Shown: piece after piece, positions 4,261 to 62,892 of the stretch
Position numbering within the stretch: the first letter of the stretch is position 1
How the letters are laid out: each line of letters starts with the position of its first letter
NCBI RefSeq assembly: GCF_900636915.1
Contig: NZ_LR134327.1
Location: 310,001-374,000 of the forward strand
Reading direction: 5' to 3'
Source of the DNA: Aggregatibacter aphrophilus ATCC 33389
GTDB taxonomy: Bacteria; Pseudomonadota; Gammaproteobacteria; Enterobacterales; Pasteurellaceae
DNA: 64,000 bases
Position numbers and translations under genes: made by a program
The notes under the pieces: generated by a model
What the model saw: only the letters and a program-made list of their open reading frames with translations
What the model was told of the DNA's origin: nothing
The model's database searches: none

Positions 4261-4344
4261 TTTTATTATCCTTGCAATTTTAAAAAATCCCGCTCAATCA
4301 AAAGTTGCTCCCGCAATGATTGAGCGGGGGAGCTTGCAGAATGG

Positions 4345-5091
4345 CTACTGCTTAATAGTGGCTACGCGGCCAAAACGCCCAAGGACTGCATCGCCCGGTT
4401 TAGAGGTATCGGCCAACACTTTCGCTTTTGCATTCAAGGCGGCCAACGAGTTGTCGTTGTTAATCAACGCAAGTGCATCGGTTGGGTTAAAGTTGATTTT
4501 GTACAACTCCAACATCACCCATTCGTTTTGCTCGGCAAGGTTGACGCCCTCGTAACGCAAAAATAAGTCTTTCGGGTTGCTTGTTAGCATTGCCACGTTT
4601 TGCGACTCACCGTAGCTGTATTTCACTGTTTCGGTGTTGCCGGATTTGTCTTTCAAAAATTCAATCGCGCCAAATACCTTATGCACTACATAATCGGTGT
4701 TTTCGGTCATATTGGCGATTTCTACATTGCTGACATTGACGTGTTTTAATGCAATGCGATCACCGGCCTTAATTTCCGTTGGTAACGCTTCGCCGGTAAC
4801 TGTACCCGCGGCAATTTTGGTATACTCACCAAGTAACAACAACGCCAAGTTTTCAGGGCTTAACTCGTGGAATTTAAGGCTTACCTCGCCTGATTTGCCG
4901 GTATTGATTTTGCGTACTTCTTGGCGCTGACCCGAGTAAGATTCTTTGTGGGTAAATTCTTCCGTGCTTAAGGATAGGTTGGCTTCGGACACATCACCTA
5001 CCCAACGTAAATTTTTCGGTTCGCCGTTTGGCAAACGTTCGCCAAGGTACACACGGCCTTGACCGTAGCTATAAGTTTCATTGCGCTCCAT
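4345..5091 (-). CDS. major tail tube protein (siphovirus type)
   Basis: 248 residues. Its place before the G/T chaperone and tape measure genes, and the absence of a Mu-type sheath (gpL) and tube (gpM) pair, identify it as the tube subunit of a long non-contractile tail. The N-terminal half has features of phage tube folds: YSYGQGRVYLGERLPNG, then a region resembling coiled beta-hairpins (KSGEVSLKFHELSPENLALLLLG). It overlaps the upstream small gene by 14 bases. Transposable phages such as D3112 and B3 combine Mu-type heads with such tails; this is the same arrangement. Confidence 0.8.
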   Translation of the reverse strand: MERNETYSYGQGRVYLGERLPNGEPKNLRWVGDVSEANLSLSTEEFTHKESYSGQRQEVRKINTGKSGEVSLKFHELSPENLALLLLGEYTKIAAGTVTGEALPTEIKAGDRIALKHVNVSNVEIANMTENTDYVVHKVFGAIEFLKDKSGNTETVKYSYGESQNVAMLTSNPKDLFLRYEGVNLAEQNEWVMLELYKINFNPTDALALINNDNSLAALNAKAKVLADTSKPGDAVLGRFGRVATIKQ

Positions 5092-8770: not shown

Positions 8771-9214
8771 TTAATCGCTCCACGCGCGTTTTATTGCGTT
8801 TTTTAAAATATCCTTGATTTCATCTATTCCCTGCTCGGATATCCCTAAAAACGGACGCGCAGGCATTTTTTTGGTGCCAAGCTGATGATATATGCCGTAA
8901 GACTCAGACACACCCACGGCGGCAAAGTCATCACCATAATCAATATTAAGGCTTGCCATCAATAAGCCGGTGCGGTGCAATATCTTACCATCATAACCCT
9001 TGGCATAACGACTTTTTTTATAGGCGGGGTCGAGATCTTCCCACTTTTCACCTTTTGGTGACCGCTCATCCTCTAAAGCGTCTTCAGCATCTTCACGCAA
9101 TACGTTAGCCATTTTGCGTGTAATGCCGTCAGATTTGCCTAATTGCACCAGTTTAGCAAATGCGCCCTGTACAATGCGCATGTCTTTTTCGTCAAATTTT
9201 ATATCGAGTTCCAC
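8771..9214 (-). CDS. phage virion morphogenesis protein (Mu gpG-like)
   Basis: 147 residues. The pattern ALEDERSPKGEKWEDLDPAY, then HRTGLLMASL, then YGIYHQLGTKKMPARPFLG is diagnostic of the phage virion morphogenesis (gpG/gpS-like) family, needed for head completion or tail attachment. It sits between the minor head gene and the protease gene, as in Mu. It is separated from the gp30 gene by a 126-base gap that holds a tRNA-like sequence on the opposite strand. Confidence 0.9.
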   Translation of the reverse strand: MELDIKFDEKDMRIVQGAFAKLVQLGKSDGITRKMANVLREDAEDALEDERSPKGEKWEDLDPAYKKSRYAKGYDGKILHRTGLLMASLNIDYGDDFAAVGVSESYGIYHQLGTKKMPARPFLGISEQGIDEIKDILKNAIKRAWSD

Positions 9215-9256
9215 TTGACATACTCCTTCAAAAGGGGTTAAATCAATTCAACTAAC

Positions 9257-9333
9257 GCGCTGGGTGGCGAAACGGCAACGCGGCATGATGACAAAATCAT
9301 GTATACTGTAGGTTCAAATCCTGCCCCAGCGCT
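9257..9333 (+). tRNA. orphan tRNA-like element, anticodon loop irregular
   Basis: On the plus strand, opposite to all neighbouring phage genes, the sequence folds as a cloverleaf. The acceptor stem is GCGCTGGG/CCCAGCGC (8 bp if fully paired, or CGCTGGG/CCCAGCG as a normal 7 bp). U8 follows, then a D arm with 3-bp stem GCG/CGC and loop AAACGGCAA containing A14 and G18G19. The T arm is a 5-bp stem GTAGG/CCTGC with a canonical 7-base loop TTCAAAT. The anticodon arm is aberrant: CATGAT/ATCATG leaves a 6-base loop GACAAA, or a 5-bp stem leaves 8 bases, so no normal anticodon with U33 can be read. The variable loop is about 6 bases. No CCA is encoded. It may be a decayed tRNA, an unusual phage tRNA or a tRNA mimic. 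Confidence 0.6.
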
Positions 9334-9340
9334 TAGTCAT

Positions 9341-10678
9341 TTAAGGCTTTCCTTTCAATACTACATACACACCGCCTTTTATCGCATTTAATACCATATC
9401 AAAGTCTTCGACCTTATAAGCATTAATGACAGCATCCACCTGTTCTTTTGGTTTCAGTCTGCGACGATTAAAATCGGCTGTTACAATCACTTTAATACTA
9501 CGGTCGGCATTAAAATAGATCAGATTGTTATGCCCCTCACTCCTATCAAAGACGACCAAACTTTCATCCGCAATAATACGTGATAATGAGCTGTATTCTT
9601 TTTCATTTAAGCCTATGCCGCCTTTGTGATGTTTATGACTATTGGCATGTAATAAGTTTCTTTCGGTCATAACAAGCAGGCGTTGGCTTGTTTGTCCGGT
9701 AATTTGCTTAACATCGTCAGCAATATCCTCAGACACAATACCTGCGCTAATATATCGGTCACTTGCCCCACGATTATTCAGGTTGGCTTTAACCCAATTC
9801 TCAAATGCCTTATGCCGCGCTTCACTTTTGTTGATTGCTTGGATAGTCTGACTACGTAAATCACGGTTTTTTGCATCTAAGATTTTACGGATTAAAACGA
9901 TGTCATTTCCTACCGCACTTTTGCCAACATTATTGCTCCATCCTGCGTCCGTGGTAATGGTGCCTTTATCGGTCGTTAGGCTATACACTTTGGCATGGGT
10001 TTCTTCGCCGGTGGCCTTATCCACGCCCGCAAGCGCCCAATCCTGTTTAATTCTGCCGCCCGATTGACTTACCTCAAGCCCCATTTTGTCTAACCGTCTT
10101 TGGCTTAACGCACGCACCCGGCAACGACAATTCCAGCCATTGGGCGGATACATGACATCCCAAATCGGGTCGTCATAACGATACACCTTCTCGTGCAAGG
10201 CTAAATGACTTGCCCGAGTGCGACTATCTTTAATCGCCAAATATTGCCAATAGGGCTGTTCATCGGCGTTGGCCATTTGTTCGGCGTAGCGCGCGGCATG
10301 GTAAGCGGTGATTTTATTGGTGCGTAAAATCGTTTGTAAGCGGCGCGGACTGCCGAGCTGTATCGTCTGCTCCGTGCCGTTGGTATTAGACACTTTAACT
10401 TTTCCCCACCATCCCAACGCCTCCAGTTTGGGGCGCAAATTGTTGATATATTCGCGCTCCGGGATGCCTTTTTCAATGGCTTCCACGGTGGCCGTGCGGA
10501 TAGTCTCTAAAATATCCATGCGGGTGACTTTTGCCACGGTAAACGCCCGCGCGTGGGCATCCTCAAGGGCTTCTTGCCAATTCCAGGCGATGGCATACCC
10601 CTTGGCCTTGAGATAGTCAACGGCAAGTTTAGGCTCCATGCGCAATAGCTCGCGCATATCTAGATTAGCGGTTGGCAT
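9341..10678 (-). CDS. minor head protein (Mu gp30/F-like) with C-terminal nuclease-like extension
   Basis: 445 residues. Residues 1-200 form an SPP1 gp7/Mu gp30-type minor head (MuF) domain ending in the signature NGWNCRCRVRALSQ (about 180-192). A further region of about 245 residues follows; its last 100 (HHKGGIGLNEKEYSSL ... VFDRSEGHNNLIYFN ... VVLKGKP) resemble the Barnase/EndoU/ColicinE5/RelE-like nuclease folds known as C-terminal toxins on MuF proteins. The paired histidines at about 349-351 and the YFN segment are suggestive, but active-site assignment is not certain. It overlaps the portal gene by 14 bases. Confidence 0.85.
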   Translation of the reverse strand: MPTANLDMRELLRMEPKLAVDYLKAKGYAIAWNWQEALEDAHARAFTVAKVTRMDILETIRTATVEAIEKGIPEREYINNLRPKLEALGWWGKVKVSNTNGTEQTIQLGSPRRLQTILRTNKITAYHAARYAEQMANADEQPYWQYLAIKDSRTRASHLALHEKVYRYDDPIWDVMYPPNGWNCRCRVRALSQRRLDKMGLEVSQSGGRIKQDWALAGVDKATGEETHAKVYSLTTDKGTITTDAGWSNNVGKSAVGNDIVLIRKILDAKNRDLRSQTIQAINKSEARHKAFENWVKANLNNRGASDRYISAGIVSEDIADDVKQITGQTSQRLLVMTERNLLHANSHKHHKGGIGLNEKEYSSLSRIIADESLVVFDRSEGHNNLIYFNADRSIKVIVTADFNRRRLKPKEQVDAVINAYKVEDFDMVLNAIKGGVYVVLKGKP

Positions 10679-40283: not shown

Positions 40284-43200
40284 TTATTCTGCGTGATCGT
40301 CGTCTTCTACCATATTCAGCATTTCAGCCAAATTTGCCGATGCTTCATCAGAAGTCATGACGAATTCGGAAGCAATCTCTTCTTCATCCGCTGCCGATAA
40401 TCTTACCGGCACCTCTTCTTCGGAAATCACGGTTGGATTTTTATGACGATTTTGGTGATACGCAAAACCGGTACCCGCCGGGATCAAACGACCCACAATG
40501 ACGTTTTCTTTCAAGCCGCGTAATTCATCGCGTTTACCTGCTACTGCCGCTTCCGTTAACACACGTGTGGTTTCTTGGAAGGATGCCGCAGAGATGAAGG
40601 ACTCGGTTGCCAAGGACGCTTTGGTAATACCCAATAATTCACGTTCATATTCCACCGGTGGTTTGCCTTCCGCTTCACGTTTACGGTTAACGATTTTCAC
40701 GCGAGCCACTTCCACTTGTTCCCCTTCAAGGAATTCGGAGTCATAAGCTTTGGTGACAATCGCTTTACGCAACATTTGGCGTACAATAACTTCGATGTGT
40801 TTATCGTTAATTTTTACCCCTTGTAAGCGGTAAACTTCTTGGACTTCATTAACGATATATTCGGTTACTGCGTGTACACCACGTAAACGTAAGATGTCAT
40901 GTGGCGTTTCCGCACCGTCGGAGATTAAATCACCACGATCTACCATTTCACCTTCGAATACGTTCAATTGACGCCATTTCGGAATCATTTCTTCGTACAC
41001 TTCACCTTCCGTCGGAGTAATCAATAAGCGACGTTTACCTTTGGTTTCTTTACCGAAGGACACGATACCGGAGATTTCTGCCAAAATGGCCGGCTCTTTC
41101 GGTTTACGTGCTTCAAACAAGTCTGCCACGCGTGGAAGACCACCGGTAATATCTTTCGTTCCTACGGATTCTTGCGGAATACGTGCTAATGGATCACCGA
41201 TATGCACTTCTGCGCCGTCATCTAGGGTCACGATAGCTTTACTTGGTAAGAAGTATTGCGCTACAACATCGGTACCCGGCACGACAATATCGTTACCTTT
41301 ATCATCAACCAGTTTAATCGCCGGACGTAAGTCTTTACCGGCTGTCGCACGTTCACCCACGTCTTGTACCACAACGGAAGAAAGACCGGTTAATTCGTCG
41401 GTTTGACGGGTAACGGTTAAGCCGTCCACGATATCCACGAATTTCACGAAACCGCCCACTTCAGAGATAACCGGCATGGTATGCGGATCCCAGTTAGCGA
41501 TAGTTTCGCCGGCATTCACATCTTGCTGATCGCCTTTGTTTAAGATCGCACCGTAAGGCACTTTATAGTGTTCTTTGGTACGACCGAAGGTATCCACAAT
41601 GGTTAATTCGGTATTACGAGAAGTTAACACCAATTTGCCTTCATTGTTAGTTACAAATTTCGCATTGGCCAAACGCAATGTACCGTTGTTTTTCACTTGT
41701 ACGCTAGACTCTTTGGCTGCTGCAGATGCCGCACCACCGATGTGGAACGTACGCATGGTTAACTGTGTTCCCGGTTCACCGATAGATTGTGCCGCAATAA
41801 CACCCACGGCTTCACCTTGGTTAATCAGGTGACCGCGCGCTAAATCACGACCGTAACATTTCGCACACACACCAAAGTCGGTATTACAGGTTACAACAGA
41901 ACGGACTTTCACACTGTCCACAGAATTTTCGTCTAATACATCACACAATTTTTCATCTAATAAGGTATTGCGTGGAATTAATACTTCTTCCGTCCCCGGT
42001 TTTAAGATGTCTTCAGCAACGACACGACCTAAAACTTGTTCGCGTAGAGGCACTTTTTCATCGCCACCCTCAATTAACGGGGTCATCACGATACCTTCGT
42101 GTGTACCACAGTCGTCTTCTACGATAACGAGGTCTTGCGCTACGTCAACCAAGCGACGAGTTAAATAACCGGAGTTCGCTGTTTTCAACGCGGTATCCGC
42201 CAAACCTTTACGCGCACCGTGGGTGGAAATAAAGTATTGTAAAACATTTAAACCTTCACGGAAGTTTGCCGTAATCGGGGTTTCGATAATGGAACCGTCC
42301 GGACGTGCCATCAAGCCACGCATCCCCGCTAACTGACGAATCTGTGCTGCAGAACCACGCGCACCGGAATCTGCCATCATAAAGATACTGTTGAAGGACG
42401 CTTGTTTTTCCGGTTTACCTTCACGGTTAATCACTTCTTCCGTAGAAAGGTTTTCCATCATAGCTTTCGCCACACGTTCGTTGGCGGCAGCCCAAATATC
42501 GATCACTTTGTTATAACGTTCGCCGGCAGTCACAAGACCGGATTGGAATTGCTCCTGAATTTCAGCAACTTCTTCTTCCGCTGCAGAAATAATTTCGTAT
42601 TTTTTCGCCGGAATGACCATATCGTCGATACCAACGGAAGAACCGGAACGTGCAGCATAAGCAAAACCGGTATACATAATGTGGTCAGCAAACATGACAC
42701 TGGCTTTCAAGCCTAAACGACGATAGCTTTCGTTAATTAACTTAGAAATCGCCTTTTTGCCCAGTGTTTGGTTAAACAAGCTAAACGGCATACCTTTCGG
42801 TGCGATCATCCATAAAATGGCACGACCGATAGTCGTATCTGTTAATGTGGTTTTTGATTCAAACTCACCGGCTTCGTTTTTCACATACTCAGTAATACGA
42901 ACTTTCACACGAGAATGTAATTCTGCTTGACCGGTACGATAGGCTTTTTCTGCTTCGCGCGGGTCTTGCAATAACATGCCTTCACCTTTACCGTTCACTT
43001 TTTCACGGGTCATATAGTAAAGACCTAACACCACGTCTTGTGACGGAACAATAATCGGATCACCGTTTGCCGGAGAAAGAATGTTGTTCGTAGACATCAT
43101 TAACGCACGCGCTTCTAATTGCGCTTCCAAGGTTAACGGTACGTGTACCGCCATTTGGTCACCGTCGAAGTCCGCATTGAACGCCGCACAAACAAGTGGG

Positions 43201-44552
43201 TGTAATTGAATCGCTTTACCTTCGATTAAGATCGGTTCAAACGCTTGAATACCCAAACGGTGCAATGTTGGCGCACGGTTCAACAGAATCGGATGTTCGC
43301 GAATGACTTCAGCCAAGATATCCCAAACGATCGCATCTTCACGCTCCACCATTTTCTTCGCAGCTTTAATCGTCGTTGCATAACCACGGCTTTCTAATTT
43401 TGCATAGATAAACGGACGGAATAATTCCAACGCCATTTTCTTCGGCAAACCGCATTGATGTAAGTGTAAGTATGGGCCTACTGTGATTACGGAACGACCT
43501 GAGTAGTCAACACGTTTACCCAACAAGTTTTGACGGAAACGACCTTGTTTACCTTTAATCATATCCGCCAATGATTTTAACGGACGACGGTTAGAACCGG
43601 TGATAGCACGACCGCGACGACCGTTATCTAACAATGCATCAACGGATTCTTGTAACATACGTTTTTCGTTACGCACAATAATATCCGGTGCGATTAAATC
43701 CAATAAACGTTTTAAACGGTTGTTACGGTTGATTACACGACGATATAAATCGTTCAAGTCGGAAGTTGCAAAACGACCACCGTCTAACGGCACTAACGGA
43801 CGTAAATCCGGTGGAAGCACCGGTAATACGGTCATCACCATCCATTCCGGTTTGTTGCCGGACTGTAAGAAGGCTTCTAATAATTTTAAGCGCTTAGTGA
43901 TTTTCTTACGTTTGGTTTCGGAATTGGTTTCTTGTAATTCTTCACGTAAATTTTCGCATTCCGCTTCCAAATCGATACCGCGCAATAAGGCTTGAATGGC
44001 TTCCGCACCCATTTTGGCATCGAACTCATCTTGCCAACGGTCTTCCGCGTCAAGATATTGTTCTTCGGTTAACAACTGACCACGCTCAAGATCGGTCATA
44101 CCCGGTTCGATCACAATGTAAGATTCAAAATACAGCACGCGTTCAATATCACGCAAAGGCATATCTAACAATAAACCGATACGGGACGGCAGGGATTTTA
44201 AGAACCAAATGTGCGCCACCGGTGAAGCTAATTCGATATGCCCCATACGTTCACGACGAACTTTAGTTTGAGTGACTTCAACGCCACATTTTTCACAAAT
44301 CACACCACGGTGTTTTAAGCGTTTGTACTTACCGCACAAACATTCGTAATCTTTTACCGGTCCGAAGATACGGGCACAGAAAAGACCGTCACGTTCCGGT
44401 TTAAAGGTACGATAGTTGATTGTTTCAGGCTTTTTAACTTCACCGTATGACCAAGAACGGATCATGTCAGGTGAGGCTAAACCGATTTTAATCACATCAA
44501 AATCTTCAGCGGTTTTTGATTGTGCTTTTAAAAACTTAACTAAGTCTTTCAC
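40284..44552 (-). CDS. rpoC: DNA-directed RNA polymerase subunit beta'
   Basis: I choose GTG at 44552 (1422 residues; V-K-D-L-V-K-F-L) after AGGAGCAAATCT, as in E. coli; the open frame extends 11 codons upstream. The zinc-binding site ([20 protein letters not shown]), the catalytic NADFDGDQM motif and the trigger-loop/bridge-helix region ([21 protein letters not shown], outlined) are present. It is separated from rpoB by about 103 bases, in which a weak inverted AAGTACGGTCG/CGACCACACTT repeat occurs. Confidence 0.98.
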
Positions 44553-44655
44553 AGATTTGCTCCTGTCGGAGTTAAACTTATTCAAGTACGGTCGTTTTTC
44601 AAAACGTTTTTAAAATCGACCACACTTGGGCTCAATAGGGGGTCAATACCCTGAC

Positions 44656-47600
44656 TTATTCTTCGTCCAAGTCGATGTTGATACCAAGTGAACGGATTTC
44701 TTTCATAATTACGTTGAAAGATTCCGGTGTGCCCGGATCCATGTGTTGGTTGCCGCTGACGATGTTTTTATACATCTTCGTACGACCGTTCACATCATCG
44801 GATTTCACGGTTAACATTTCTTGTAAGGTATAAGCAGCACCATAAGCTTCAAGTGCCCAAACCTCCATCTCACCGAAACGTTGACCACCGAATTGCGCCT
44901 TACCACCCAACGGTTGTTGAGTAACAAGACTATAAGAACCGGTTGAACGCGCGTGCATTTTGTCATCAACCAAGTGGTTCAATTTGAGCATATACATGTA
45001 ACCTACAGTTACCGGACGCTCGAATTTCTCACCTGTACGACCATCATAAAGGGTAATTTGACCGGAAGTCGGTAAACCACCAAGCTCTAATAAGCCTTTA
45101 ATTTCTTTTTCATGGGCACCGTCAAATACCGGTGTCGCAATCGGCAAACCTTTACGCAAGTTTTGTGCTAAACGCATCACTTCTTCGTCAGTAAAGGTGC
45201 TGAGATCCACTTTTTGTGAACCGCCGCCAAGGTCATAGGCTTTTTGCATGTATTCACGCAATTTCGCAATAGATTGTTGTTGTTTAATCATCGCGTTAAT
45301 TTGATCACCGATACCTTTTGCCGCCAAACCTAAGTGAGTTTCTAAGATTTGACCGATATTCATACGGGACGGAACGCCCAGCGGGTTCAATACAATTTCA
45401 ACAGGTTGACCGTTTTCATCGTATGGCATGTCTTCCACAGGGTTAATTTTGGAGATAACCCCTTTGTTACCGTGACGACCCGCCATTTTATCACCCGGTT
45501 GAATTTGACGTTTCACCGCCAAGTACACTTTAACGACTTTCAACACGCCCGGTGCCAAATCGTCGCCTTGGATAATCTTGTTGCGTTGAACTTCTAATTT
45601 ACGTTCAAATTCTTTGCGTAATTCTTCGTGTTGTTCCGCTAACTGCTCTAATTGGTGCTGTTTTTCCTCGTTATCTAAGGTTTGCTCCAACCATTTAGTG
45701 CGGTCTAATTTATCTAAGGATTTCGCATCGAAACCGCCGGACAACAATAGGTTGCGGACACGCATAAACAAGCCGGCTTCTAAGATCTCAAACTCTTCGC
45801 TCAAGTCTTTTTTCGCTTGTTTTAACTGCATTTCTTCAATTTCTAACGCACGTTTGTCTTTTTCTACGCCATCACGGGTAAACACTTGTACGTCAATAAC
45901 GGTACCGGAAACGCTGTTTGGTACGCGTAGAGAAGAGTCTTTCACATCGGAGGCTTTTTCACCGAAGATCGCACGCAATAATTTTTCTTCCGGCGTTAAT
46001 TGGGTTTCACCTTTCGGTGTCACTTTACCTACCAGAATATCGCCGCCTTTCACTTCCGCACCGATATACACGATACCAGATTCGTCCAATTTACTTAGTG
46101 CGGCTTCACCGACGTTAGGAATATCTGCGGTAATTTCTTCCGCGCCTAATTTGGTATCACGCGCCACACAAGACAGCTCTTGGATGTGAATCGTGGTGAA
46201 GCGATCTTGTTGAACCACACGTTCGGAGACTAACATGGAGTCTTCGAAGTTATAACCGTTCCACGGCATGAAAGCTACGCGAATATTTTGACCTAACGCC
46301 AATTCACCTAAATCGGTGGAAGGACCGTCTGCCAAGATTTCACCGCGTTCCACCGGATCGCCCAATTCCACGCAAGGAATTTGGTTAATACAGGTATTTT
46401 GGTTCGAACGGGTATATTTAATGAGGTTATAAATATCAATACCGGCTTCGCCCGCGACAGTTTCGTCTTCATTGACTTTCACCACGATGCGGGAAGCATC
46501 TACATATTGAATAGTACCGCCGCGTTTTGCCACAACCGCCACACCGGAGTCAAGGGCAACCGATTTTTCGATACCTGTACCGACTAACGGTTTGTCCGCA
46601 CGCAATGTCGGCACGGCTTGACGTTGCATGTTCGCCCCCATCAAAGCACGGTTCGCATCGTCATGCTCCAGGAACGGAATCAATGCCGCCGCTACGGAAA
46701 CCACTTGTTGGGTAGAAACGTCCATATAGTGAATTTCTTCCGGTTTATATAAGCCGGATTCACCATGTTCACCACGACAGGTTACAAAGGCATCGGTAAA
46801 GCGGAAATCATCATCAAGATTGGAGTTCGCCTGTGCGATAACGTATTTGCCTTCTTCAATGGCAGACAAATATTCGATTTCTTCAGTCACCTGACCATTT
46901 ACTACTTTACGGTACGGAGTTTCTAAGAAGCCGTAGTCGTTAGTACGCGCATAAACGGAAAGGGAGTTAATCAAACCGATGTTTGGCCCTTCAGGCGTTT
47001 CAATCGGACACACGCGACCATAGTGGGTAGCATGTACGTCACGCACCTCAAAACCTGCACGTTCACGGGTTAAACCGCCCGGACCCAATGCAGAAATACG
47101 ACGTTTGTGTGTGACTTCTGATAACGGGTTGTTTTGGTCCATGAATTGAGATAACTGAGATGAACCAAAGAATTCTTTCACCGCAGCAGAAATTGGTTTT
47201 GCGTTAATTAAATCTTGTGGTGTGATGGCATCTAAATCACCTAAAGATAAACGCTCTTTCACCGCACGTTCAACACGTACCAAGCCAATACGGAACTGGT
47301 TCTCTGCCATTTCACCCACAGAACGGATACGACGGTTACCTAAGTGGTCAATATCATCCACTTCACCGCGACCATTACGAATATCAATCAGTTTCTTCAT
47401 CACACTGACGATATCTTCATTACTTAACGTACCGTTACCGGTGGCTTCTTCAATACCTAAAGAGCGGTTAAATTTCATTCTACCTACAGCAGACAAATCA
47501 TAACGATCGGAAGAGAAGAACAGGTTGTCAAATAATGCTTCTGCGGCTTCTTTTGTCGGTGGTTCACCCGGACGCATCATGCGATAGATTTCCACTAACG

Positions 47601-48684
47601 CACTTAGGCGGTCATTAGAAGGATCTACACGTAAGGTTTCGGAAATATACGGACCATAATCAAGATCATTGGTAAATAAAGTCTCAATTTGTGTATAACC
47701 GGCTTGTGCTAATTTTGCCAATAACTCAAGAGAAAGCTCCATATTTGCCGGGCAAACTAATTCTCCGGTTGCTAGATCCACATAATCTTTCGCAGCAACT
47801 TTGCCTACAATATATTCAGTCGGCACTTCAACTTGGGTAACTTTGTCTTTTTCCAAGGCTTTAATATGACGTGCAGTAATACGACGGCCACGCTCAACAT
47901 AAACCTTACCTTTAGCCTCAATATCAAACGCGGCGGTTTCACCACGCAAACGCTCCGGTACTAAGGTCATTAATAATTTGTTATCTTTGATTTCAAAGGA
48001 AATTTTATCAAAGAAAAGATCTAAGATTTGTTCGGTAGTATAGCCTAGCGCACGTAAAATAATGGTTGCCGGTAATTTACGACGGCGGTCGATACGTGCA
48101 TATAAATTATCTTTCGGATCAAACTCAAAATCCAACCATGAACCGCGGTAAGGAATAATACGTGCGTTATACAGCACTTTACCTGAAGAATGAGTTTTAC
48201 CTTTGTCGCTATCAAAGAATACACCCGGACTGCGGTGTAATTGAGACACGATAACACGCTCGGTACCATTAATAACGAAAGTACCGTTATCAGTCATCAA
48301 TGGGATTTCACCCATATAAACTTCTTGTTCTTTAATATCTTTGATGGTGCCCGGTGCGGCATCTTTGTCGTAACTAACTAAGCGTAGTTTTACTCGTAAA
48401 GGTGCTGCATAGGTGGTACCACGAATTTGGCATTCACGTACATCAAACACCGGCTCGCCTAATTGATAGCTGACATATTGTAATTCAGTATTTCCGTTTG
48501 TACTGACAATCGGGAATACAGAGCGGAAAGCGGCTTCTAAGCCTTGTTGACCATCAGGATCTCTTTGAATAAATTTTTCAAAAGAATCAATCTGAATTGT
48601 TAATAAATAAGGAATATTTAAAACTTGCGGACGTTTGCCGAAGTCTTTACGAATTCGTTTTTTCTCGGTATAGGAGTAAACCAT
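44656..48684 (-). CDS. rpoB: DNA-directed RNA polymerase subunit beta
   Basis: I choose ATG at 48684 (1342 residues, identical to E. coli length), beginning [19 protein letters not shown]. The rifampicin-binding cluster region ([20 protein letters not shown] and following [17 protein letters not shown]) has the standard residues D516-, H526- and S531-equivalents (DQN, HKR, ISALG), with no typical resistance substitution seen; note the unusual reading starts at '[20 protein letters not shown]'. It lies in the rplL-rpoB-rpoC operon. Confidence 0.98.
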
Positions 48685-48892
48685 AGGGTTCCTCTGCTTG
48701 CTGTTCAGTGACCCACAATCAACACGCAATAATTTGGGCAAATATTGGTGACAATGTATTAGATACCGTTTTTAGATGACCGCACTATGAACCTTACTTC
48801 TTGAGTGGGTAGCTCAAATTAAAATGCTTTGTTTAACTTGAGGAAACAAAAGTAATCAAACGGCAAATTTACTTCTGTTTTTGATAGCACAA

Positions 48893-56457: not shown

Positions 56458-56908
56458 GAGCCACCTCCATAGAATCACGAGAGATTGCCGCAAAAGTGCG
56501 GTCGTTTTTCACGGTGTTTTGAAGATTGATTTTGCCGGCAAGCACAAGAACAAAATCACGGGCGAATTGGGCGCGTGCGGCTCGTTCAGTGTCAGCAGTG
56601 ATACGGATTTTTTGAATCTGATTGGTTAGATCGGTACGGCGAATAGCCGCAAAAATGAATTGATACATTTGCGTAGATTCCAATAACTGATTTTTAGAAT
56701 CTACCGCTAGACTTCTCACGGTCGGGCGGTAGAACGTAACAGGGTGAGAAACTGTCGTTATTGGAAAACAGCCCGTCAAAGACGGCCTATTACGCTCTAC
56801 CATTGAATGAATTTTTAGATTAGATAAAACAAAATCCGCAAATTCTTGAGGTGTGCGAATGTTACGAACAAAAAAAGCACGGTTCTGTGGCGTGCTATCG
56901 TTCGCCAA
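56450..56908 (-). CDS. Icd-like (host cell-division inhibitor-type) protein
   Basis: 152 residues. The C-terminal half (TQMYQFIFAAIRR ... IRITADTERAARAQFARDFVLVLAGKIN, outlined) matches the Icd/Ash-like family found on Pasteurellaceae phages and satellites; P1 Icd and P4 Ash are founders. The N-terminal part (about 1-75) is variable. Effects on host division are known for some family members but not shown here. It overlaps the next gene. Confidence 0.75.
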   Translation of the reverse strand: MANDSTPQNRAFFVRNIRTPQEFADFVLSNLKIHSMVERNRPSLTGCFPITTVSHPVTFYRPTVRSLAVDSKNQLLESTQMYQFIFAAIRRTDLTNQIQKIRITADTERAARAQFARDFVLVLAGKINLQNTVKNDRTFAAISRDSMEVAHA

Positions 56909-62526: not shown

Positions 62527-62892
62527 TGGTGGAGCTGGGGGGAGTTGAACCCCCGTCCGAAATTCCTCTACCGTTAGTACTACACGTTTAGTCAGTCTTT
62601 AAGATTCGCTTAACCCTGCGGACAGACACGCGATAATTAAGCTAGTTTGATTTAATTTAATGCTTCGATCCTCAAACGGCGGCGTCCACACGATCTCGTT
62701 TGGGTTTGACTCCGCTTTATCCCCGTCTTACGAGCGGAAGCTGGGGAGCGAAGGCTATGAGCAGGTTATTAAGCTGCTAAAGCGTATTGTTCGTCGTTTG
62801 CGACTATTTTTTTGCGGTTTATTTACGAGGCCTACCGCACCTCGACGTGCACCTCGGGCTTCGCTAATCCCGTCGAATCCAGAATCAGCCCC
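62527..62892 (-). ncRNA. ssrA: tmRNA (ssrA)
   Basis: 366 bases on the minus strand. The 5' end GGGGCTGATTCTGGATTCGAC and 3' end GGTTCAACTCCCCCCAGCTCCACCA, outlined here, form the tRNA-like domain with G-U pair; the resume reading frame is GCA AAC GAC GAA CAA TAC GCT TTA GCA GCT TAA, tag A-ANDEQYALAA. It rescues stalled ribosomes. The 3' domain carries an encoded CCA. Confidence 0.97.

Follow-up and report, generated by a model that had tools for sequence, protein, structure and literature searches.

Conserved tRNA-like cloverleaf antisense to the head operon of Mu-like Pasteurellaceae prophages: a candidate small-RNA gene

Introduction

In the tRNA-like domain of tmRNA, the elbow and acceptor of a tRNA are present, and a helix substitutes for the anticodon arm. 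RNA I of ColE1 is a small, constitutive antisense RNA that consists of several stem-loops and shows type diversity, and the C4 antisense RNA is known from P1/P7-type phages. Across D3112-like phages, the anti-CRISPR site has a fixed position and a variable content. The late genes of phage Mu require the activator C.

Here, we describe a putative RNA (gap RNA) encoded between two head genes of a Mu-like prophage, gpF and gpG, on the opposite strand. It resembles phage tRNA genes (RF00005) in its cloverleaf, D-loop GG, T-loop TTC, and length. However, it has neither an anticodon loop nor CCA at the acceptor core, its acceptor is mostly longer than 7 bp, and it has its own promoter-like motif, antisense in a late operon. 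With the tmRNA domain it shares the plan of elbow and acceptor, but it does not match the tmRNA model. The anti-CRISPR locus of D3112-like Mu phages is likewise a small accessory gene within the head operon; in D3112, AcrF2 is located between gpG and the protease, one gene away. The locus described here differs in that the accessory gene would encode RNA rather than protein, occupies the gpF-gpG site, and is antisense; an anti-defence action is our proposal. Unlike ColE1 RNA I, the gap RNA has true tRNA D- and T-loop signals and is predicted not to cover the ribosome site. The C4 antisense RNA of P1/P7 (RF01695) is also a prophage antisense RNA, with a fold that differs from that of the gap RNA.

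Our searches of an open-access library gave no paper describing the gap RNA, and no annotation of it was found in the records searched. It could not be tied to the sRNAs in the accessible parts of the surveys of Histophilus somni (PMC3262788), Mannheimia haemolytica (PMC3439734), and Actinobacillus pleuropneumoniae (PMC4809551), with which it was compared without gene coordinates. A term search of the accessible part of the H. somni Hfq paper (PMC10204968) gave no match for it. For Mannheimia phages, the accessible part of the genome report gives two tRNAs for the lambda-like phages and only CDSs for the Mu-like phage 3927AP2 (PMC4553209).

Results

The Cloverleaf in the gpF-gpG Gap

The analysed window is a stretch of 64,000 nucleotides of Aggregatibacter aphrophilus ATCC 33389. 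Its minus strand contains a Mu-like prophage, in which the tape measure, major head protein, protease, gpG, gpF, portal, and terminase were recognized with PHROGs and Pfam. The gene for the minor head protein gpF (9341–10678, minus strand; PF04233 Phage_Mu_F, phrog_220) precedes the RNA locus. The gene for the virion morphogenesis protein gpG (8771–9214, minus strand; PF05069 Phage_tail_S, phrog_26) is the next one of the operon after it. The two are separated by a gap of 126 nt (9215–9340). The initial annotation of this DNA had placed a near-complete tRNA fold in this gap, on the strand opposite to both genes, and its position was confirmed by two programs. ARAGORN reported 9257–9333 (plus strand) as tRNA-??? 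with the 4-base 'acaa'. The Rfam tRNA model RF00005 matched 9258–9332 (plus strand) with 43.6 bits at a cut-off of 29 (E = 5.9e-6 in the 64-kb window). Among the 56 tRNA matches above the cut-off in the whole genome, that of the cloverleaf scored lowest.

The acceptor of the window element is formed by the 5′ strand GCGCTGGG (9257–9264) and the 3′ strand CCCAGCGC (9325–9332), whose pairing is backed by covariation; it has 8 bp and not 7. The 3′ strand is followed by TTAG, and CCA is missing. The D-like arm GCG-AAACGGCAA-CGC, with G18G19, occupies 9267–9281, and the T arm GTAGG-TTCAAAT-CCTGC occupies 9308–9324; both were assigned from the sequence and from hand-placed rows. The D-loop GG, the T-loop TTCAAAT, and the missing CCA are all as originally described. 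The anticodon arm is replaced by a middle arm, GCATGAT-GACAAA-ATCATGT (9283–9302), with a stem of 7 bp (one G-U) and a loop of 6 nt, GACAAA. The window element therefore has no standard anticodon loop, which agrees with the earlier reading of an arm without the normal 7-base loop.

A search for a copy of the element elsewhere in the host genome gave short matches only, and those to the T arm that were checked lay in true tRNA genes, e.g., that of Met-tRNA. In a comparison aimed at descent from a single host tRNA, the best identity was 0.73 among the 10 host tRNAs compared. The same genome carries a second Mu-like gpF (C1:3–1046), which is 79% identical and has seven in-frame stops, a decayed sister prophage.

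Recurrence among Relatives

The relatives were retrieved with the gpF protein, without reference to the RNA; therefore, the prevalence is not biased by the finding itself. The gpF sources were genome contigs (9 loci), viral contigs (32 loci), and 140 genomes of the family, 63 of which had a match. For named phages, 282 gpF-matching records were found, a few of which were fetched. The near set consisted of 36 distinct sequences downstream of gpF, with a gpF identity of 52–100%, and included the window's own sequence and some near-duplicates. At four of these loci (L058, L059, L080, and L081), the next gene was not gpG. All 36 sequences carried three motifs on the strand opposite to gpF: TTGA[CT][AT]-N17-hexamer, A..GG[CT]A for the D-loop, and TTC[AG] for the T-loop; such motif counts over near and distant loci cover the whole fetched stretch and not the gap alone. 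The element had been called an orphan, a description that does not hold given its recurrence in 36/36 near sequences. The remark that transposable phages rarely carry tRNAs, if applied to tRNA-like genes, fails in Pasteurellaceae for the same reason. A DNA search of named phages gave short matches only, none of which exceeded 30% of the query.

Conservation of the Fold and the Folded Strand

Twenty diverse RNAs were aligned with MAFFT and folded with RNAalifold. The result was a cloverleaf of four arms (acceptor, D, middle, and T), and both sides had changed at 17 of its 19 pairs. Within the named acceptor, D, and T arms of these 20 RNAs, 91.7% of cells were paired, as compared with 65.0% in shuffles. 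The covariation score, computed for 20 of the 27 RNAs (near-duplicates and a few others were omitted), was 0.740; shuffles gave 0.229 (0/500), and the score did not exceed 0.156 with the partner slid. For this score and for energy folding, the RNAs were trimmed to the hand-placed acceptor core, which makes the acceptor pairing partly a matter of construction. In 26 hand-placed rows, 178 of 181 acceptor pairs were standard; with permuted 3′ strands, 61.9% were standard on average and 76.7% at most (0/5000). The D stems were paired in 97/97 cells. Both the D-loop GG and the T-loop start TTC were present in every one of the 26 rows; the T-loop of L082 was placed one base too long, with the pair counts unaffected.

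Because hand placing and trimming favour pairing, the test was repeated with anchoring on the D- and T-loop motifs alone. It covered all 36 near sequences, and the controls were given equal search freedom. The longest paired run between the flanks had a mean of 9.61 with the own 3′ side and 6.14 with those of other rows (0/200 permutations). Runs of at least 7 were found in 34 of 36 own combinations and in 404 of 1260 with the 3′ sides of other rows, same-type rows included. The middle arm was very variable among relatives, with 4-nt loops predominating. In some members, e.g., L061, L070, L075, L077, and L080, energy alone gave no cloverleaf. Taken at the level of sequence comparison, these data allowed us to conclude that the antisense strand has a conserved, covarying cloverleaf.

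On the tRNA strand, 22 G-U pairs were counted versus a single A-C in the acceptor, D, and T arms of the 26 rows, among which rows of the same type are not independent. The reverse would be expected if the complement folded, so the folded product is likely the antisense RNA and not the operon mRNA. The invariant D-loop GG and T-loop TTC also count for the antisense strand, because a structure acting via the mRNA strand would not need them.

A decayed tRNA and a chance fold were ruled out by the covariation, the permutation tests, and the recurrence in 36/36 sequences. The decayed gene offered by the initial annotation is contradicted by abundant compensatory changes and a constant T-loop start. 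Rapid decay with no compensatory changes had been proposed there as the pattern speaking against function, and the relatives display the opposite.

Promoter-like Motif and Terminator

In the window, a −35 element, TTGACA, was read from the sequence at 9215–9220 (plus strand), directly upstream of the gpG start codon (9212–9214, minus strand). It is followed, at a spacer of 17, by the −10-like hexamer TTAAAT (9238–9243), which is weak and agrees with the consensus in 4/6 positions. The predicted start lies near 9250, and the predicted small RNA would span 9250–9333 (plus strand), starting close to the foot of the acceptor stem; 9333 is the end of the cloverleaf and not a mapped transcript end. 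A stricter rule-based scan reported no promoter in 9100–9500 of the window, as it misses the −10 hexamer TTAAAT, whose position 2 is not A. The motif TTGA[CT][AT]-N17-hexamer was located upstream of 27/27 RNAs of this kind (family 1). The distance from the −10 end to the acceptor core is 14 nt in the window and 8–21 nt in 26/27 RNAs, which places the predicted start close to, or at, the foot of the acceptor, which is often extended.

A sigma-70 scan was performed on 114 Pasteurellaceae loci minus 6 with a broken or short gpF; after merging identical gaps, 87 were left, with close relatives remaining among them. At a spacing of 17, a score of at least 9/12 was reached in 65/87 gaps on the antisense strand, as compared with 14/87 on the sense strand and 58/435 windows antisense to gpF. 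A score of at least 10/12 was reached in 22/87, 0/87, and 4/435, respectively. An intrinsic terminator followed 7/27 RNAs versus 3/405 control windows; the terminator scan found none after the window RNA. The upstream TTGA-N17 motif is thus conserved, and together with the sigma-70 scores and the terminators it gives the locus a gene-like character.

Comparison with Decoding tRNAs and Other RNA Classes

The family has the cloverleaf, D-loop GG, and T-loop TTC of a tRNA, and it does not conform to the 7-nt anticodon loop with U33 or to the 7-bp acceptor. In energy folds of the 27 RNAs, the middle loop had 3, 4, 6, or 11 nt, mostly 4 and never 7, and some of these loops were GNRA tetraloops. The paired acceptor had 7–18 bp counting G-U, with exactly 7 in 3/27 (L055, with an acceptor core of 6 bp, was counted one too high). 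CCA at the acceptor core or one base after it was found in 0/27 RNAs. The Rfam tRNA cut-off was reached by 8 of the 14 gap RNAs scanned, and for the other 6 the tRNA model gave no match up to E 1. In two types, ARAGORN assigned an anticodon: Ile(tat) to L030, L039, and L070, and Phe(aaa) to L034, L035, L056, L067, L078, and L079. We take these anticodons as forced fits to longer stems, and they still count as evidence on the tRNA side.

The only Rfam family that matched the family-1 gap RNA was tRNA. The tmRNA model did not match it; its sole match in the window (62527–62892, minus strand) is the host's true tmRNA, with the tag ANDEQYALAA according to ARAGORN and Rfam. The C4 model RF01695 did not match it either, and its matches in the window were confined to 56722–56807. 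No CRISPR-repeat family of Rfam, as would be expected for an RNA anti-CRISPR acting as a repeat mimic, matched the gap RNA in the loci scanned; the CRISPR-repeat matches in L073 come from a true array. The predicted RNA is fully complementary to the co-located mRNA, as a cis-antisense RNA would be, which follows from its antisense position.

Exchange of RNA Types between Phages

The identity of the RNA tracks that of gpF weakly (Spearman 0.15, p = 0.005, 351 pairs). The gpF proteins of L040 and L064 are 56% identical and their RNAs 95%, and those of L066 and L072 are 88% identical and their RNAs 61%. Two different RNA types occur in tandem in L060 and L062, and more than one RNA copy was found in L130, L133, and L157. 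In type B, the core is nearly constant, and the far acceptor end and apical loop vary. Exact signatures of type B (22-base) and type A (26-base) were detected in 10 and 7 viral contigs, respectively, with one match each, and all of these contigs had already been recovered by the gpF search. From these comparisons we conclude that types have been swapped between phages and that, in some phages, different types stand in tandem.

A partner gene for type A or B was sought within about 10 kb on 31 phage contigs, and none was tied to either type after allowing for the number tested. The best uncorrected p over all gene groups was 0.027 for type B and 0.008 for type A.

The 7.3 kb examined of a Bisgaardia hudsonensis locus (L031) carry gpF and a cut-off gpG beside a CRISPR array. 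Two tRNA-like elements of different types are located on it, at about 2730–2853 and 4300–4440, each with a promoter-like motif.

Other RNA Patterns at or near the Same Site

The distant set consisted of 58 Pasteurellaceae loci, including the named phages SuMu and 3927AP2. By motif search, 48 of them carry other RNA patterns: 33 of family 2, 11 of family 3, and 4 of family 4 alone; the family-4 pattern was also matched by two of the 33 family-2 loci. Seven of the remaining 10 loci have an antisense RNA or promoter by eye. In the other three (L118, L137, and L141), neither was seen by eye, or gpF is broken. Rfam searches up to E 1 gave no match to RNAs of families 2–4 in the loci scanned. The gpF-gpG gaps of SuMu, 3927AP2, and Pmp9 have 147, 150, and 123 nt and contain no annotated feature.

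The structure of family 2 was tested on 24 of 29 rows (near-duplicates and a few others were omitted); the named structure was paired in 96.3% of cells versus 80.8% in shuffles and at most 43.2% when slid. The first copy in L133 was omitted from one comparison. The family-2 acceptor has two-sided changes at 9/9 pairs, its ends having been chosen by complementarity. Not chosen in this way was a loop-loop helix, CTCxx:xxGAG, which has two-sided changes at 2/5 pairs and misfits as aligned in 4/24 rows (motif TTCTGC). In family 3, TTCGAAT within a CCTG/CAGG arm was found in 11/11 RNAs, and the acceptors varied. Since complementarity guided the choice of these acceptors, part of their pairing is built in; the motif-anchored check covers family 1.

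Outside Pasteurellaceae, a gpF match with E 1e-20 or better was obtained in 13 other genomes of the class (369 searched). By eye, an antisense RNA-like sequence was seen in L160, L163, L164, L166, L168, L171, and L172, with a clear T arm in L163, which we regard as a lead. The gap sequences of L164 and L166 have, also by eye, a 7-base loop-loop complement, GCCTGCC:GGCAGGC. There is no room between gpF and gpG, which overlap or nearly touch, in Mu, D3112, MuM16-1, PhiKM, KP12, VW-6B, ST405-OXA48phi1.1, and Komp_PAO1_1. In phages QH16 and HXX_Dennis, gpF is not followed by an annotated gpG, and the gap lacks a T-loop motif. In B3 and ZX4290, a small annotated frame lies between the two genes; a quick fold of these stretches gave no canonical cloverleaf, and that of ZX4290 contains one TTCAA, perhaps by chance. 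The antisense strand of B3 ORF34 (L182 2734–2856) folds strongly (−53.3 kcal/mol for 123 nt) and has the stretch CCGGGAAATCGCC in common with the gap of L168; B3 ORF34 could represent a related RNA gene.

Discussion

The locus is very probably a small-RNA gene with a tRNA-like fold minus the normal anticodon loop. It is predicted to have its own sigma-70-type promoter, and its product likely acts in trans as a tRNA look-alike; we give this explanation as a whole a probability of about 0.5. The initial annotation had left the choice between a mimic, a decayed gene, and an RNA with another role, and our analysis supports it in part. The RNA is predicted to be transcribed from its own promoter against the head operon, and would be made in the lysogen while the late genes are silent. 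Acting in trans, it would have a host factor as its partner. It retains the tRNA elbow and drops the anticodon and acceptor end, so it should be recognised by elbow-reading proteins. It may occupy a host tRNA-binding protein, perhaps a tRNA-directed defence nuclease, and different RNA types would then meet different partners. We chose this tRNA-mimic reading because the elbow is kept while types are swapped and stacked at a fixed locus, as at the anti-CRISPR site. Competition for the partner of a tRNA is a putative role and our leading reading. Several results count against this explanation: the weak −10 of the window, where the rule-based scan reports no promoter, the lack of a linked partner gene within about 10 kb on 31 contigs, the anticodons that ARAGORN reads in two types, and the members that energy alone does not fold into a cloverleaf. 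The constant position antisense to one operon could also mean a role in cis.

The main rival, which we consider unlikely, is control of the late operon by an antisense RNA encoded in cis. RNA made in the lysogen would base-pair, in the gpF-gpG gap, with late mRNA of its own type, or its promoter would oppose late transcription. Either would dampen late gene expression, in the prophage itself or in a superinfecting phage that shares its type. The cloverleaf would then stabilise the RNA and serve as a scaffold for kissing, in the manner of ColE1 RNA I. Such control would suit the same operon position in phages whose gpF differs down to about 22% and a −35 element that directly adjoins the gpG start codon. 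Immunity groups could be set by the exchange of types, and the partner gene that the search within about 10 kb on 31 contigs did not find would not be required. However, the predicted RNA misses the gpG ribosome site, which is inside the promoter, and neither the D-loop GG and T-loop TTC nor the one-strand preference of G-U over A-C is needed for antisense pairing. Moreover, the apical loop of type B, the expected key for kissing, is the part that varies.

The other explanations are weaker still. A structured RNA for virion or head assembly, such as a packaging or pilot RNA bound by gpF, is improbable. It would account for an RNA that adjoins gpF in the Pasteurellaceae loci examined and whose family tracks the gpF clade at large scale, but the type does not track gpF at short range, and in Mu, D3112, MuM16-1, and VW-6B the gpF and gpG genes lie too close together to accommodate it. 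The promoter-like motif is also directed against the late genes, and the packaging role suggested in the initial annotation found no support on either count. A working or recently working phage tRNA or suppressor tRNA gene is very improbable. ARAGORN and Rfam do call tRNAs here, with an anticodon read in two types and 8/14 gap RNAs above the Rfam cut-off, and a host enzyme could add CCA; against this stand 27/27 energy folds that have no 7-nt middle loop, acceptors of 7–18 bp with exactly 7 in 3/27, the absence of CCA at the acceptor core in 27/27, and 6/14 gap RNAs without a tRNA match up to E 1. The odd anticodon arm, and nothing else, speaks for chance or a decayed tRNA fragment; its probability is negligible in view of the compensatory changes and of a fold kept in relatives.

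If the trans-acting tRNA look-alike is expressed, a whole clade of Mu-like Pasteurellaceae prophages makes a tRNA-shaped RNA that should not decode. The testable question is then which elbow-reading host protein is worth blocking or using for a dormant phage. A broader proposal, to which we give tentative credence while leaning against it, is a class of exchangeable RNA genes that has had no name so far. It would comprise anticodon-less tRNA mimics and their relatives with an elbow rebuilt by a covarying loop-loop helix, all kept at a single head-operon site, and each type would neutralise a different tRNA-directed host defence or toxin. If this is true, the class would be the RNA counterpart of the anti-CRISPR locus, an accessory site of phages whose exchangeable content is RNA and not protein. 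The loop-loop variant would then represent a second solution to constructing a tRNA-like elbow.

Other features were observed in the window and in a related locus. The C4 antisense RNA at 56722–56807 (minus strand; RF01695, 65.5 bits) may mark another prophage. Two very long adjacent ORFs, of 1433 and 1361 aa, occupy 40284–48741 (minus strand). In L149, a match to the Rfam family AaHKsRNA22 (Aggregatibacter sRNA 22) was found at 2258–2363, downstream of gpF in a Mu-like prophage, so that this sRNA family can be phage-borne.
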